DNA from: Tabrizicola caldifontis
GTDB lineage: Bacteria; Pseudomonadota; Alphaproteobacteria; Rhodobacterales; Rhodobacteraceae
Direction of reading: 5' to 3'
DNA length: 64,000 nucleotides
Assembly (NCBI RefSeq): GCF_004762095.1
Contig: NZ_SIJH01000004.1
Location: 124,001-188,000, forward strand
Shown here: piece by piece, positions 14,040 to 21,075 of the stretch
How positions within the stretch are numbered: the first letter of the stretch is position 1
Layout of the letters: the number at the start of each line of letters is the position of its first letter
Notes under the pieces: model-generated
Told to the model about the DNA's origin: nothing
What the model saw: only the letters and a program-made list of their open reading frames with translations
Databases searched by the model: none
Position numbers and translations under genes: made by a program

Positions 14040-14513
14040 TCACGACCGCCGCCAATCCTCCAGCGCCGCATTCTCTTCGGCCGCCGCCTGTGGCGCTGCG
14101 GACGCGGACGTCACGGCGTGATTGCGGAAGTAATGCGTCTCGCGCGCGCCGAAATAGAAGGCGACGATCGCGCCCAGCAGCCACCACAGCGGCTCGGGCA
14201 CCGCATTCAGCCCCGCCATCCGGTCAGCGAAGGCCCTCGGGTCCACCATGGCGTAGACGAACAACCCGATTGTGCCGAAGGCAAGAAACGGCCGCGGCAG
14301 CCGGTTCAGCCCGTTCACCATCCGGTCGAACCGGGACAGGGCGGGATGCTGATACTCCTCGCCCAACTGGCGCAAGGCGGCCATCTGCGCCTCTGCCGAA
14401 TATTCCATGCGCTTCGTGGCGCTGGGCACGAAGACCTCGGCCACGCCCTTCGCAGCCTCGCCCAGCGCCGTGACCGTGCCGGGGGAACCAATCAGCCTGC
14501 CGATCATACCCAT
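14040..14513 (-). CDS. GTA-type holin (3TM holin family)
   Basis: This 157-residue protein resembles the 3TM holins used for gene transfer agent release in Rhodobacterales. It has a weakly amphipathic N-terminus, then two clear membrane helices, [15 protein letters not shown] (about 77-91) and [18 protein letters not shown] (about 107-124), and a charged C-terminal tail. Its start overlaps the end of the endolysin gene by 10 bases; an alternative ATG at 14507 would form an ATGA overlap. No capsid, portal or tail gene is near, which fits the separate lysis locus known for R. capsulatus GTA. The GTA link is inference from family and pairing. Confidence 0.82.
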
Positions 14514-15115
14514 CGCGCCACCCGCGCCCGGTGCTGCGCCTCGGTCAGATGGTATTTCGGAGAGATGAATTCCTCTGCACGCAGGATCCAGCCGCCCTTT
14601 CCGCCGTCCTTGCGCCTGGCAAACTTGCGGCTGGCGGGGCGGCTGTCGGCCAGCGCGTAGTAATAGTTCCGACGCGCGATTCCGTAGGCATCGGCCAGAT
14701 GCGCAGGCGCCGCCTCATGGGCCAGCTGCGCCGCGCGAATCGTCTTCGGCCCGATCACCCCGTCCGGCTCGCAGGGAAAGCCCATCTCGGTCAGCAGCCG
14801 CTGCAGTATTCTCACCGCATTGGCCCCGCCATTCACATACATGTCGAAGACACTGGCCTGGATCGGCTCGGGCAGGGCTGCGATGCCGGGACGGCGATAG
14901 TAATGTTCCAGATAGATCTCCACCGCCTGGGCGCGGGTCAAGGCCTTCACATCGGCCACATCGATCCGCCTGTCGCGGTTCACGTCGATCCCCAGCCGCC
15001 TCAGCGTGCCGATGGTGACCCCGTGGTTCGTGGCCCCGCCCGGATCGTCCGGGTCGTTCACGAAACCGCCCTCGCGGGCGACGATCTCTTCGGCAATCCG
15101 TCGGACATCCGGCAT
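14504..15115 (-). CDS. GTA-type endolysin, GH108 N-acetylmuramidase with peptidoglycan-binding domain
   Basis: This 203-residue holin-associated muramidase has the GH108 catalytic segment IVAREGGFVNDPDDPGGATN (Glu in REGG is the predicted catalytic acid). The C-terminal half is a PG_binding_3 domain containing DGVIGPKTIRAAQ. There is no signal peptide, so it would need the adjacent holin to reach the wall. An ATG at 15115 is chosen; one four codons upstream is possible. A CtrA-like half site TTAA lies about 43 bases upstream (15158-15161). It is co-transcribed with the holin downstream. Confidence 0.86.
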   Translation of the reverse strand: MPDVRRIAEEIVAREGGFVNDPDDPGGATNHGVTIGTLRRLGIDVNRDRRIDVADVKALTRAQAVEIYLEHYYRRPGIAALPEPIQASVFDMYVNGGANAVRILQRLLTEMGFPCEPDGVIGPKTIRAAQLAHEAAPAHLADAYGIARRNYYYALADSRPASRKFARRKDGGKGGWILRAEEFISPKYHLTEAQHRARVARWV

Positions 15116-15184
15116 GCTGACCCCCATTTCAGACAGGGATAGCCTGACAAGGCGGCATTAACGCCCCCCTGATGCAGCGCGCGC

Positions 15185-17008: not shown

Positions 17009-18049
17009 TCAGGGCACCGGGGTCCACATCACATCGTCGATCCGCGGCGCAGCCGTCGCCAGCATCACAAGGCGATCGAAACCCAGCGCGATGCCGGCAG
17101 CGGGTGGCATGAGCGCAAGCGCCGCGAGGAAATCCTCGTCCAGCGGGTAGCTTTCGCCATAGACGCGCGCCTTCTCGGCCATCTCGGCCTCGAACCGCCG
17201 GCGCTGTTCCTCGGGGTCGGTCAGTTCGCCGAAGCCGTTCGCCAGTTCCACCCCGCAGGCATATACCTCGAACCGTTCGGAAACCCTTGCATCTCCGGGC
17301 ACCTTTCGCGCCAGGGCGGCCTCTGCTGCGGGATAATGGTCAAGGATCGTCACCCTGCCCTGCCCCAGATGCGGCTCGACCTTCGCTGAAAGCACCCGGC
17401 TGAACATGTCCGACCAGGTATCATCGGCCGCCCGGCGCAAACCGATCCGGTCCAGCTCTGCCCCCAGGCGTGCGGCATCGGTGGTTCCGTCAGGACGGAT
17501 CGAAGCCATCAGATCCACCCCGGCATGCCTGCCGAAGGCGTCGGCCACCGTCAGCCGCTCGGCTTCGGCGAAGGGGTCGCAGGCAAGGTCGCGGAAGCGC
17601 AGCAGCTTTACCCCCGCCTCGTCGGCGGCAAGGCGCAGGAACACAAGCGTATCGTTCATCAGCGCCTCATACCCCTCGCCCGCCCGATACCACTCCAGCA
17701 TGGTGAACTCGGGGGAATGCAGCGGCCCGCGCTCGCGGTTGCGCCAGACATGCGAAAAGGCGTGAATGCGTGTCTCGCCGGCGGCCAGCAGCTTCTTCAT
17801 CGCGAACTCGGGCGATGTGTGCAGATACATCCGGCGACGCTGCCCGTCATTGCCGATGGCTTCGGTGGCAAAGCCGTGAAGATGCGCCTCGTTGCCAGGG
17901 CTGACCGCAAGCGCCGCCGGATCGACCTCCACGAAAGCCTCCTTCGCCAGGTAGCGCCGGATTGCGGCCTGGATACGGTTGCGCGCCATCAGCACGGGGC
18001 GGCGGTCGGCATGAACGGCTGGGTTCCACCATTGGGACGAGGGATTCAT
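17009..18049 (-). CDS. epmA: EF-P lysine aminoacylase EpmA (GenX/PoxA)
   Basis: This 346-residue paralogue of the lysyl-tRNA synthetase catalytic core lacks the anticodon-binding domain. It attaches (R)-beta-lysine to the conserved lysine of EF-P. Motif 2 is visible as HVWRNRERGPLHSPEFTMLE and motif 3 as GIALGFDRLVM. The gene is divergent from efp with an 87-base gap, so enzyme and substrate share a control region. The beta-lysine-producing aminomutase EpmB is not in the window. Confidence 0.93.
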   Translation of the reverse strand: MNPSSQWWNPAVHADRRPVLMARNRIQAAIRRYLAKEAFVEVDPAALAVSPGNEAHLHGFATEAIGNDGQRRRMYLHTSPEFAMKKLLAAGETRIHAFSHVWRNRERGPLHSPEFTMLEWYRAGEGYEALMNDTLVFLRLAADEAGVKLLRFRDLACDPFAEAERLTVADAFGRHAGVDLMASIRPDGTTDAARLGAELDRIGLRRAADDTWSDMFSRVLSAKVEPHLGQGRVTILDHYPAAEAALARKVPGDARVSERFEVYACGVELANGFGELTDPEEQRRRFEAEMAEKARVYGESYPLDEDFLAALALMPPAAGIALGFDRLVMLATAAPRIDDVMWTPVP

Positions 18050-18136
18050 CTGGAAATTCCGGTCGGGATCGGTTAGGGGCGCGTGCAGATGCCGGTCCGT
18101 GGGACCGGGCCCCGGGATATAGCAAGGACCAGACCT

Positions 18137-18703
18137 TTGAAAGTCATCGCCTCAAGCCTTCGCAAGGGCAATGTCGTCGAGATGGACGGCAAGCTCTACG
18201 TTGTTCTTACCGCCTCGAACTTCCACCCCGGCAAGGGCACGCCCACGACCAGCGTGGACATGCGCCGGATTTCCGATGGGGTTAAGGTCTCCGAACGCTG
18301 GCGGACGACCGAGATGGTGGAAAAGGCCACCGTCGACGAACGCGAATACGACTTTCTCTATGAAGACAGCGAAGGCTTCCATTTCATGGAGCCGAACACC
18401 TACGAACAGGTCGTCGTGACCGAGGACGTGATGGGCGGCAACAAGCCCTACCTTCAGGAAGGCATGCGCTGCTATCTCAAGACCTTCGAGGGCGTGCCGA
18501 TCGCGATCGAGGTGCCCCAGAAGATCACGGTGGAAATCGTCGAGACCGAGCCGGTGGTGAAGGGGCAGACCGCCTCCTCGAGCTACAAGCCCGCAATCAC
18601 CTCGAACGGGCTGCGCGTGATGGTGCCGCCGCACATCGGGCCCGGCACCCGTATCGTGATCAACACCGACGACGATTCCTACGTCGAACGCGCCAAGGAC
18701 TGA
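18137..18703 (+). CDS. efp: Translation elongation factor P
   Basis: EF-P relieves ribosome stalling at polyproline stretches. With a TTG start at 18137 (ribosome-binding site AAGGA eight bases upstream) the protein is 188 residues, exactly the usual length and N-terminus ([19 protein letters not shown]). Upstream ATGs add unrelated sequence. The modification loop is FHPGKG with K33, the target of EpmA-type beta-lysylation. The rest shows [19 protein letters not shown] and a typical C-terminal OB domain. Confidence 0.95.
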
Positions 18704-18778: not shown

Positions 18779-19591
18779 TCAGGCTGCCTCGAAAGTGATC
18801 TTCCGGCGCAGGAACTGGGTGGCCTTGTTCGAAACACTTGCAGGATCGCCCGTGGTCAGGAACTTCGCCTCGGTGCCTGGCCCAAGAAACTCTGGCCGGC
18901 GCTGCAGATAGTCGGCCAGGGCCTCGGCCACCAGGTTTGCCTGGGAATAGACCTTGACCTCCTCGCCCAGCGCCTCCTGAAAAGCCTTTTCCATCAGGGG
19001 GTAATGCGTACAGCCCAGGATCGCCGCCTCGGGATGCGGCATGCGGCGCTTCAGTGCCTCGACATGGCTGCGCACCAAGGCCTCGGCCAGAATCTCGTCG
19101 CCCTGCTCGATGGCATCCACAACGCCGCCGCAGGGCTGGGCCTCGACATCCACTCCGATGGCGCGGAAGGCCAGCTCGCGCTGGAAGGCACGGCTTGCAA
19201 CGGTGGCAGGGGTGGCAAAAAGGGCGACATGCTTCACCGCAACCTCGCGCGGGGGCGAGTTGTCGCCCCATTGCCGTTCGGTCAGCGCCTCGATCAGCGG
19301 CACGAAGACGCCCAGAACACGCTTGTGGGGCGGCAACCAGGTTTCCTGCATCCGCTTCAGCGCGGCCGCGCTGGCGGTATTGCAGGCCAGGATCACCAGA
19401 TCGCAACCCTCGGCCCACAGCCGTTCCACTGCGGCGCAGGTCAGATGAAAGATGTCATCCGCCGTGCGCACACCATAGGGCGCGTGGGCATTGTCGCCAA
19501 AATAGACAAAGGGAACATCCGGCAACCGTTTTGTCACCGCCTCAAGAACGGTCAAGCCGCCGAGGCCCGAATCGAAGATACCTACCGCCAT
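18779..19591 (-). CDS. murI: Glutamate racemase
   Basis: This 270-residue enzyme makes D-glutamate for peptidoglycan. Both catalytic cysteines are present: C70 in LACNTAS and C194 in LGCTHYP. The N-terminal [12 protein letters not shown] and [11 protein letters not shown] motifs are complete. The gene is divergent from the VtlR-like regulator; nothing suggests they are functionally linked. Confidence 0.96.
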
Positions 19592-19778: not shown

Positions 19779-20684
19779 ATGGACTGGGACAAGCTGAGAA
19801 TCTTTCACGCCGTCGCGGAAAAGGGCAGCCTGACCCATGCCGGCGAGGTGCTGCACTTGTCGCAGTCCGCCGTCAGCCGGCAGATCCGCGCGCTGGAGGA
19901 AAGCCTGTCGGTCACGCTGTTCCACCGCCATGCGCGCGGGCTGATCCTGACGGAACAGGGCGAACTGCTGTTCGACGCCACGACCCAGATGGTCAAGCGG
20001 CTGGATGCCACGGCCGCACGCATCCGCGACAGCGAGGATGAAGTCTTCGGCGAATTGCGCGTGACCACCACCACGGGCTTCGGCACACTGTGGCTGGCCC
20101 CGCGCCTCGCCCGGCTGTACGAGAAATACCCGGCGCTGAAGATCGACCTGATGCTGGAAGAGCGCGTTCTGGACTTGCCGATGCGCGAGGCGGACGTCGC
20201 AATCCGCATGAAAGAGCCCAGCCAGGCCGACCTGATCCGCAAGCGGCTGATGAACATCAGGATGCAGCTATTCGCGACGCCCGAATACCTGGCCGCCCAC
20301 GGCACGCCCGAGACGATGGACGATCTCAGCGCCCACCGGCTGATCAGCCAGCACGCCGGCACGCCGCAGGTCGCGGCAGGTGCGCTTCTGGTGGCGGAAC
20401 TCATGACGCATGACATCCCCTCGACCCTGACGGTGAACAACTATTTCGGAGTCTTGCAGGCGGTGCTGAACCATCTGGGCGTGGGCGTCCTGCCCGACTA
20501 TCTGACCGAGGATTTTCCCAACCTCGTCAGGGTCTTGCCGGATGTCCAGAGCGCCGAGGTGCCAGTGTTCCTGGCCTATCCCGAAGAGTTGCGCCATTCC
20601 AAGCGCGTGGCCGCCTTCCGCGACTTCGTGACCGACGAGATCATGTCCTTCCGCCGCCGTCAGCAGGAGGAGGCCGCGGCCTGA
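19779..20684 (+). CDS. LysR-family regulator of the VtlR/LsrB type
   Basis: This 302-residue LysR protein has the winged HTH in residues 1-60 (DKLRIFHAVAEKGSLTHAGE...SQSAVSRQIRALEE) and a full effector-binding domain (TTTTGFGTLWLAPRLARLYEKYP, then READVAIRMKEPSQADLIRK). The N-terminus MDWDKLRIFHAVAE, HRHARGLILTEQGELLF and the VAIR-RxP-QPDLI-like stretch resemble the VtlR (Brucella) / LsrB (Sinorhizobium, Agrobacterium) group. In those bacteria the gene sits beside an AbcR-type sRNA. Here too an intergenic RNA candidate follows 105 bases downstream on the same strand. Assignment to the group rests on my reading of sequence and synteny, not on an alignment. Confidence 0.85.
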   Translation: MDWDKLRIFHAVAEKGSLTHAGEVLHLSQSAVSRQIRALEESLSVTLFHRHARGLILTEQGELLFDATTQMVKRLDATAARIRDSEDEVFGELRVTTTTGFGTLWLAPRLARLYEKYPALKIDLMLEERVLDLPMREADVAIRMKEPSQADLIRKRLMNIRMQLFATPEYLAAHGTPETMDDLSAHRLISQHAGTPQVAAGALLVAELMTHDIPSTLTVNNYFGVLQAVLNHLGVGVLPDYLTEDFPNLVRVLPDVQSAEVPVFLAYPEELRHSKRVAAFRDFVTDEIMSFRRRQQEEAAA

Positions 20685-20711
20685 ACGCAAGGGTGGGATG
20701 CCGCCATGCAG

Positions 20712-20730
20712 CATTTGCATATCGGCAATG
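20712..20730 (+). promoter_or_regulatory. Candidate LysR-type operator upstream of the sRNA
   Basis: An imperfect inverted repeat CATTTGC-N6-GCAATG is centred near 20721, about 67 bases before the predicted RNA start. LysR recognition sites typically sit near -65 with a T-N11-A dyad, and the TTGC...GCAA core fits that pattern. Confidence 0.45.
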
Positions 20731-20753
20731 CTTAAACGTCGGGCAATCCAGAC

Positions 20754-20782
20754 TTGTTTGCGCAAGCACAGGGCACTATCTG
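20754..20782 (+). promoter_or_regulatory. Predicted sigma-70-type promoter of the sRNA
   Basis: A -35 TTGTTT (20754-20759) and a -10 TATCTG (20777-20782) are separated by 17 bases, placing the start at about 20789. No ribosome-binding site or ORF start follows at a suitable distance. Confidence 0.5.
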
Positions 20783-20788
20783 AACGCT

Positions 20789-20869
20789 CGAAGCGACGCT
20801 GAGCCTGGCTCGCGTTCCTTCGTACCTCCCTGTTGGACTTGGCCGAGCGGAAGCTCGGCCTTTTTTTTT
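20789..20869 (+). ncRNA. Candidate trans-acting sRNA (AbcR/ar15-like position)
   Basis: About 80 nt are predicted between the promoter and a strong terminator. The 5' part folds into an imperfect stem-loop: GAAG (20790-20793) with CTTC, ACGC with GCGT, and GAGC-CTG-GCTC at the tip. A single-stranded pyrimidine-rich linker follows with ACCTCCCTG (20824-20832), complementary to Shine-Dalgarno sequences, as expected for an Hfq-dependent repressor of translation. The 3' end is a textbook terminator hairpin. Position directly after a VtlR/LsrB-like gene is where AbcR-family sRNAs lie in Rhizobiales. RNA homology itself is untested, and the candidate is shorter than AbcR RNAs with two hairpins rather than three. 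Confidence 0.6.
20841..20869 (+). terminator. Rho-independent terminator of the sRNA
   Basis: A perfect 8-bp stem GGCCGAGC/GCTCGGCC (20841-20848, 20853-20860) with GGAA loop is followed by nine T (20861-20869). This is the clearest intrinsic terminator in the window. Confidence 0.95.
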
Positions 20870-21075
20870 CGAACGTCGCCATGCCGGGGCCGGGTCGCGG
20901 CGGCCCGGATGATGCCTCCTGGCTCATGTCCCCCGGCCCGGTCTCGTGCCCGTGCGGCCGCAGCCGCAGCCCATGGCATCCCGGGCAAAGAATTTTCGAC
21001 CCGGACGGGCTGCGGCGGTTTGCCCTTCCTCGGCCTTTCCCTTATGAGGCGGGCCAAGCCGCCAGAGGGGATGCC

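Follow-up and report, generated by a model that had tools for sequence, protein, structure and literature searches.

A SorY-orthologous small RNA beside an LsrB/VtlR-type regulator gene in Tabrizicola caldifontis and its proposed place in an alphaproteobacterial control module

Two small RNAs (sRNAs) of Alphaproteobacteria have been treated as separate stories, SorY in the photooxidative stress response of Rhodobacter and AbcR in the nutrient uptake and host interaction of Rhizobiales. SorY of R. sphaeroides is induced by singlet oxygen and represses its target, the mRNA of a malate transporter; it interacts with Hfq and is transcribed directly rather than processed (PMC8307010). AbcR1 and AbcR2 are encoded directly 3' of the gene for the LysR-type regulator LsrB/VtlR and carry anti-Shine-Dalgarno (aSD) motifs. 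A locus that touches both stories is found in a 64,000-nt stretch of the Tabrizicola caldifontis genome (contig NZ_SIJH01000004.1, positions 124,001 to 188,000; hereafter the window), where a LysR gene (19779-20684) is followed on the same strand by an sRNA of about 81 nt. An earlier note, made from the letters alone, had proposed the two as a VtlR/LsrB-type regulator with a diverged or independent AbcR. Judged by synteny, the sRNA is the orthologue of SorY, and the main new point is that its promoter bears a putative operator, in which six of the seven bases that are fixed in the VtlR/LsrB box of the literature are present.

The LysR gene and the sRNA behind it

The closest solved structure to the LysR protein is LsrB of Agrobacterium tumefaciens (9HH1; PMC11975290), matched at 245 bits (runner-up 109) and with 41% identity. 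In the reverse search of the T. caldifontis genome with LsrB, the window LysR came first at 244 bits, followed by another LysR at 128. By reciprocal best match the protein is therefore taken to be the LsrB/VtlR orthologue, as the earlier note had supposed. In a tree with seven paralogues the branches were too long to settle the monophyly of LsrB/VtlR. Among 192 genomes drawn evenly across the class Alphaproteobacteria, the orthologue was matched in 117 at E<=1e-55 (a single match in 114, two in 3), and 80 of the matched loci were taken for reading. LsrB has been stated to be unique to Rhizobiales, from a small species set (PMC11975290); the matches in 117 genomes of the class do not fit that statement, although the wide spread of the LsrB protein itself is not new. 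The setting of the gene does differ. Rhizobiales have the order trxB-lsrB, and in 68 of the 78 class loci from other families than that of T. caldifontis a CxxC motif of the trxB type precedes LysR on its own strand, whereas in T. caldifontis (genome size 3.48 Mb) LysR is not linked to trxB and the order is murI (-), LysR (+), intergenic sRNA and purL (+). For closer comparison 110 LysR loci were collected, consisting of 80 named loci (the best 80 of 575 LysR matches) and 30 loci from the genus, with partly overlapping strains. The features of the locus are as follows.

19779..20684, + strand: LysR-type regulator, LsrB/VtlR orthologue, 301 aa, no cysteine (Pfam HTH_1 and LysR_substrate)
20706..20731, + strand: proposed LsrB-type operator ATGC-N7-GCAT-N4-G-N2-ATGC, exact in the window
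20753..20781, + strand: core promoter CTTG-N19-CTATCT, -35 at 20753-20758 and -10 at 20776-20781, from the conservation footprint
20789..20869, + strand: SorY-orthologous sRNA, about 81 nt, from Rfam SorY/SorX matches, fold and the class model R1; 5' end placed from the promoter and the Rfam alignment
20789..20822, + strand: 5' hairpin, structure kept and sequence variable
20825..20838, + strand: aSD core CCTCCCTGTTGGAC, exact match in 107/110 loci
20841..20869, + strand: intrinsic terminator, 8-bp G+C stem GGCCGAGC/GCTCGGCC and T9, from terminator scan and fold
18779..19591, - strand: murI, divergent neighbour and synteny marker (NCBIfam glutamate racemase), seen in 37 of the 80 named loci, with locus stretches ending at 2.5 kb or contig ends
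21076..23238, + strand: purL, neighbour and synteny marker (NCBIfam PurL, 954 bits), seen in 55 of the 80 named loci, with the same limit on the stretches

Fold and conservation together confirm, at the level of sequence, that the sRNA and its elements are real. The minimum free energy (MFE) of 20789-20869 is -37.1 kcal/mol (z -4.0), a stability reached by none of 200 shuffles. Within the linker, CCTCCCTG at 20825-20832 is unpaired in the centroid structure and forms two weak pairs in the MFE structure. A consensus terminator scan detects the sRNA terminator, with a regional count of 2 that is not above that of shuffles (mean 1.7). The stem-loop, the aSD linker and the terminator of the earlier note are in this way all recovered. 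Its promoter was not found by a scan of the sRNA region for promoters of E. coli consensus, and was borne out instead by conservation. Across 100 distinct sequences that precede the RNA core (from LysR-orthologue loci, many of them of the window's genus), CTTG (20753-20756), TA (20777-20778) and T20781 are 93-98% identical, and no base between CTTG and TA exceeds 70%. The whole footprint reads, in order, ATGC, GCAT and ATGC blocks, then CTTG, TA..T and the RNA. By its position the core promoter is compatible with both the RpoD consensus CTTGAC-N17-CTATAT and the RpoH1 consensus CTTGAA-N16-CCTATAT (PMC8844928).

The gene order and the aSD linker are also conserved among relatives. The core lies within 450 nt behind the LysR stop codon in 107 of the 110 loci and about 1.1-1.3 kb behind it in two others (L040, L067); it was not seen in the remaining one (L109). 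In the genus, the sRNA stretch was matched in 31/32 genomes, including 23/23 of the good ones. The core is invariant in an alignment (A2) of 57 sequences, themselves picked by this 14-mer. Among 101 distinct sequences, the 40 nt before the core have z<=-1 in 99 (mean z -3.15; a 40-nt control region, which overlaps the palindromic operator and is so not neutral, has mean z -1.13). The terminator stem GGCCGAGC is present in 71 of these sequences, other perfect stems occur in 27, and none was found in 3.

For the window as a whole, the only Rfam match at gathering thresholds is a tRNA. When 20600-21000 was scanned permissively, the matches were SorY (RF02651) at 46.5 bits (E 2.2e-8; cut-off 111) and SorX (RF02784) at 44.9 bits (E 7.3e-10; cut-off 46.6). 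As neither cut-off is reached, the window RNA is not called a member of an Rfam family. The SorY cut-off is so high that the RNA of Luteovulum azotoformans (L064) attains it with just 111.4 bits. This locus has the order LysR-RNA-purL and, since the LysR-purL slot there holds an RNA above the SorY cut-off, the window RNA is identified as a syntenic orthologue of SorY, judged via L. azotoformans rather than R. sphaeroides. SorY of Rhodobacter shares with the window RNA the identical stretch ACCUCCCUGUUGGACUU, the succession of 5' hairpin, linker and terminator and a length of about 80 nt, whereas the sequence of its 5' hairpin is unlike that in the window. The RNA pointed out in the earlier note thus corresponds to an already studied sRNA.

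A candidate operator and regulon

The published VtlR/LsrB box is GCAT-N3-TG-N3-T (PMC7486931; PMC8844928), and its removal in Sinorhizobium meliloti lowers abcR1 promoter activity more than 22-fold (PMC8844928). The proposed operator of the window contains GCAT-N3-GG-N3-T, which retains six of the seven fixed bases, and its columns 20706-20708, 20718-20720, 20723, 20725 and 20729-20730 are 92-99% conserved. The window sRNA shares with AbcR both a place adjoining LsrB/VtlR and a promoter box of the same kind, and the AbcR position ascribed to it by the earlier note is upheld. With at most 1 of 13 mismatches, the operator is found at 83/99 Rhodobacterales loci (0.1% in shuffles). With at most 2 mismatches, it is found in 12/20 Rhizobiaceae abcR promoters (none in shuffles) and at 25/49 other class loci with an RNA core (1.0% in shuffles). 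Spacing to the core promoter is also regular. Among 96 Rhodobacterales promoters, the distance from the operator end to the TTG of the -35 element is 22 nt in 73, 21 nt in 19 and 16 nt in 2, with no TTG found in 2; in Rhizobiaceae abcR promoters it is 11 nt in 12/12, where a looser -10 test was applied, and the core promoter was recognised in just 1/25 class loci. The operators of the two groups are offset by 11 bp, one helical turn.

The operator also recurs away from the sRNA. It is exact in 27/32 genus genomes; a reversed-pattern control gave 0 in the listed genomes, although reversed words such as TACG may be rarer in these genomes, so that shuffles are the better control. Of 13 genus loci read, five sites precede a gene of DUF1127 type (with Pfam run on one of the proteins), three a small open reading frame (ORF) with the motif LEQMYAYWGSD and two a thioredoxin-reductase gene; the others precede a DUF6280-type gene (L251) and a substrate-binding-protein-like frame (L228) or are the sorY site itself (L252). 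In T. caldifontis there are 11 sites with at most 1 mismatch. Two of them belong to DUF1127 genes, and sorY, the small ORF and a DUF6280 gene account for one each, which makes five in all. Of the five DUF1127 genes above cut-off in this genome, two have a site within 350 nt upstream and the other three have 4-5 mismatches. In the wider family the operator is exact in 54/80 genomes, and 30 loci were read. A motif search assigned 11 of these to sorY and 1 to DUF1127; by eye, 3 more are DUF1127-like and 7 DUF6280-like, and 8 are unassigned. In Brucella, VtlR acts as an activator of AbcR2 and of three DUF1127 genes (PMC12595884). The candidate targets match this regulon of an sRNA and DUF1127 genes, and the match is the best indication of a link between operator and regulator.

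Some of the putative sites stand before genes of other kinds. DUF6280-type genes lie behind the operator in L251, L255, L264, L265, L266, L273, L277, L278 and L279; the site has 1 mismatch in the T. caldifontis genome and none in the genomes of the genus and the family (the L255 protein was scanned). The small conserved ORF, with LEQMYAYWGSD near its end, follows the operator in L235, L238, L248 and L263, and the one copy scanned had no Pfam match. Upstream of trxB in the genus (L309-L338), a degenerate operator with at most 3 mismatches is present in 28/30 loci (4.8% in shuffles), about 84-102 nt before trxB, though trxB does not adjoin LysR.

From these observations, a mechanism can be proposed. 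The LysR protein would bind the operator (20706-20731), which lies roughly 57-83 bp ahead of the transcription start, and would activate the promoter CTTG-N19-CTATCT; a heat-shock-type sigma factor may recognise this promoter as well. The resulting RNA of about 81 nt, with its 5' hairpin, exposed CCUCCCUGUUGGAC and terminator, would then pair through this core with the ribosome-binding sites of mRNAs. Pairing would probably take place with Hfq and lower translation of the mRNA. The most probable targets are mRNAs of transporters, on which SorY and AbcR are also reported to act. The computation shows that regulator and RNA are orthologous and that operator and promoter are conserved, as are the hairpin, the core and the terminator of the RNA. 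Activation of the adjoining SorY-orthologous sRNA by the LsrB/VtlR orthologue through the promoter operator is considered probable; like binding by this LysR, Hfq dependence, repression and targets, it is inferred.

Several observations weigh against such control. The T of the published box is replaced by G in the window and in 78% of the sequences. The operator, with at most 2 mismatches, also occurs at 6/29 class loci without an RNA core (0.7% in shuffles). Its pattern was fixed after sight of the Rhodobacterales and Rhizobiaceae promoters, and for this reason the class loci and the sites away from the sRNA are the more independent evidence. Six of the 11 sites in T. caldifontis are unexplained, two of them being one place on both strands (for another, L259, a small membrane-protein-like frame follows at a distance of 119 nt). 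In this genome the stretch before trxB lacks the operator (6 mismatches), and so does that before lysR, where the best site has 5 mismatches out of 13. LsrB of Agrobacterium has a redox-switch pair, C144/C273, whereas the window LysR is without any cysteine; among the 80 named orthologues, 24 also have none, and the majority of the rest carry just one, near 191. A search for seed targets in the 64-kb window found ACAGGGAGG only as the complement of the sRNA itself. In the literature searched, outside which most subscription papers lie, no report was found of LysR acting on SorY. Finally, SorY of R. sphaeroides is placed within the RpoE/RpoHI/RpoHII network (PMC8307010). As the promoter fits both RpoD and RpoH consensus forms, the proposed control by LysR need not conflict with the dependence on RpoHI/RpoHII that is reported for SorY.

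RNAs behind LsrB across the class

Outside the family of the window, CCTCCCTGT(T/A/C) occurs within 900 nt behind LysR in 49/78 class loci, and CTCCCAGACGT in 39 of these 49. Most commonly, ACGTCTCCCAGACGTGAAGCCTCCCTGTT is seen with a terminator behind it. Rfam found no sRNA family over cut-off in 20 class loci, not all of which carry the RNA. At E<=1, SorX/SorY were found behind LysR in five of 11 class loci (L119, L131, L142, L151, L161) and further from LysR in L118 and L129. A covariance model, R1, was built from 37 aligned class sRNAs (alignment A1) from outside the family; its E-values are rough. R1 matches the sRNA position of the window at 28.6 bits (E 4.8e-5) and 56 of the 57 named Rhodobacterales loci to which it was applied (18.7-39.9 bits, E 3.9e-8 to 0.024), with no match in L109. 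Of a further 40 class loci, 19 gave a match at E<=0.1, two displaced and one weak. Among 45 unrelated control loci (operator sites, paralogous LysR, DUF1127, trxB), one match had E 0.04 and one 0.38. By the R1 matches in Rhodobacterales, the SorY RNA is homologous to the LysR-adjacent RNAs elsewhere in the class. The 6-pair hairpin found by RNAalifold on A1 is mostly invariant and so offers little evidence from covariation.

A few details of the class loci may be added. In loci L117-L194 the class-wide sRNA behind LysR has a hairpin ACGTCT-CCC-AGACGT, then GAAGCCTCCCTGTT and a terminator. The model matches in L118 (5741-5850) and L129 (594-698) are on the same strand, 1.8-2.4 kb behind LysR, and L133 (3553-4190) has three tandem R1 matches in one genome.

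AbcR itself differs in its RNA body. The ar15 family (RF02345) has a 112-position model, three hairpins and two aSD motifs unlike those of the window RNA, aSD1 UCCUCCC in the 5' loop and aSD2 UUCCCCUC (PMC3712013; PMC8844928). The ar15 model found nothing in the T. caldifontis genome at E<=0.01 with stricter filters and nothing in 20600-21000 at E<=10 (cut-off 40 bits), and TCCTCCC and TTCCCCTC are absent from 20789-20869. On these grounds, membership of the window RNA in AbcR was rejected. The position proposed in the earlier note stands, but the sRNA did not pass the ar15/AbcR covariance check. In the 192 class genomes, under the stricter filters, ar15 had no match over cut-off and 3 weak ones. 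In the family containing the genome with a 92%-identical LsrB, it was over cut-off in 25/41 genomes; LsrB lies within the stretch in 21 of these 25 loci, and the RNA starts 80-442 nt behind LsrB in 20/21.

The best reading of these comparisons is that SorY would take the place of AbcR in an LsrB-sRNA module that extends across the class. A wider version of it would be an ancient alphaproteobacterial module consisting of LsrB/VtlR, the ATGC-N7-GCAT-N4-G-N2-ATGC operator, an adjoining aSD sRNA and DUF1127 proteins, with an RNA body that varies by lineage: AbcR in Rhizobiaceae, the ACGTCTCCCAGACGTGAAGCCTCCCTGTT type in many other families and a shortened SorY in Rhodobacterales. The SorY promoter would then join the LsrB and RpoH inputs that S. 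meliloti splits between AbcR1 and AbcR2. We rate the chance of this wider version as even. The sequences suggest that SorY of purple bacteria and AbcR of rhizobia, studied apart, belong to one old control circuit. If so, with regulator, operator and DUF1127 genes in common, results from the SorY field would apply to the AbcR field and vice versa. In the same literature, itself available in part, no report linking LsrB/VtlR to Rhodobacter SorY was found, nor a paper joining LysR, sRNA, Rhodobacterales and anti-Shine-Dalgarno; SorY and AbcR occurred together only in a scanned 1821 review.

AbcR and SorY may also share a single ancestral RNA gene located behind LsrB, SorY then being an AbcR minus one stem and with its body changed. 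Neighbour, operator and aSD type are the same, and R1 has matches in 14 of the 25 ar15 loci (E<=0.041; 15-25.5 bits, compared with 28.6 in the window), against 1/45 control loci at E<=0.05. However, the ten ar15 alignments inspected skip the R1 core and the CTCCC hairpin, and the match rests on the terminator, an AACU-like stretch in some and the low-information 5' part. With the negative ar15 searches and the missing aSD strings also on the other side, common descent is a tentative idea that we hold somewhat more likely to be wrong than right.

Competing explanations and neighbouring genes

The proposed activation by LysR has to be weighed against other accounts of the same locus. The SorY orthologue could be driven by the stress sigma factors RpoHI/RpoHII alone, with another factor binding the palindrome and LysR being a neighbour by synteny. 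SorY is among the sRNAs controlled by RpoE/RpoHI/RpoHII (PMC8307010), and the majority -10 sequence over the 100 sequences, CCTAATT, is close to the RpoH1 form CCTATAT (PMC8844928). However, the palindrome holds six of the seven fixed bases of the VtlR/LsrB box, which has experimental support, and it is seen again in the promoters of abcR and of DUF1127 genes; LysR and RNA adjoin in 107/110 loci. Control by sigma factors alone is therefore considered unlikely.

It could also be argued that the window RNA belongs to SorX rather than SorY. The E-value for SorX is slightly better and its score is near the cut-off; moreover, among the ten relatives' LysR loci given to Rfam, four (L040, L067, L093, L096) pass SorX and one (L064) passes SorY, with five passing neither. 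SorX has the core and terminator type in common with the window RNA. In contrast, it is described as derived from a 3' untranslated region (3' UTR), in the title of a reference within PMC8307010, and the LysR-purL position of L064 carries SorY above cut-off. Assignment to SorX is thus very improbable, and identity with SorY is retained. A second copy of core and terminator, SorX-like, is present in 24/32 genus genomes, two of them with two such places; none was found in the T. caldifontis genome at E<=0.001.

The least probable account, with hardly any weight left to it, reduces the element to the lysR terminator and 3' UTR with no promoter or function of its own: it lies on the same strand 104 nt after the stop codon and has no E. 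coli-type promoter, but operator, -35 and -10 are conserved between gene and RNA, the hairpin is conserved by structure, in L040 and L067 the RNA is set off from the gene by about 1 kb more, and SorY is reported as a direct transcript (PMC8307010). A mere lysR terminator was accordingly rejected on the promoter/operator footprint and the structure-conserved 5' hairpin.

Two other genes of the window may be mentioned. A short class II tRNA-synthetase-like gene (17009-18049, - strand) is divergent from the gene for elongation factor P (18083-18703, + strand) and is, by its position, presumably EpmA-like. An endolysin-type gene with a glycosyl hydrolase 108 domain and a peptidoglycan-binding domain lies at 14504-15127 on the - strand.

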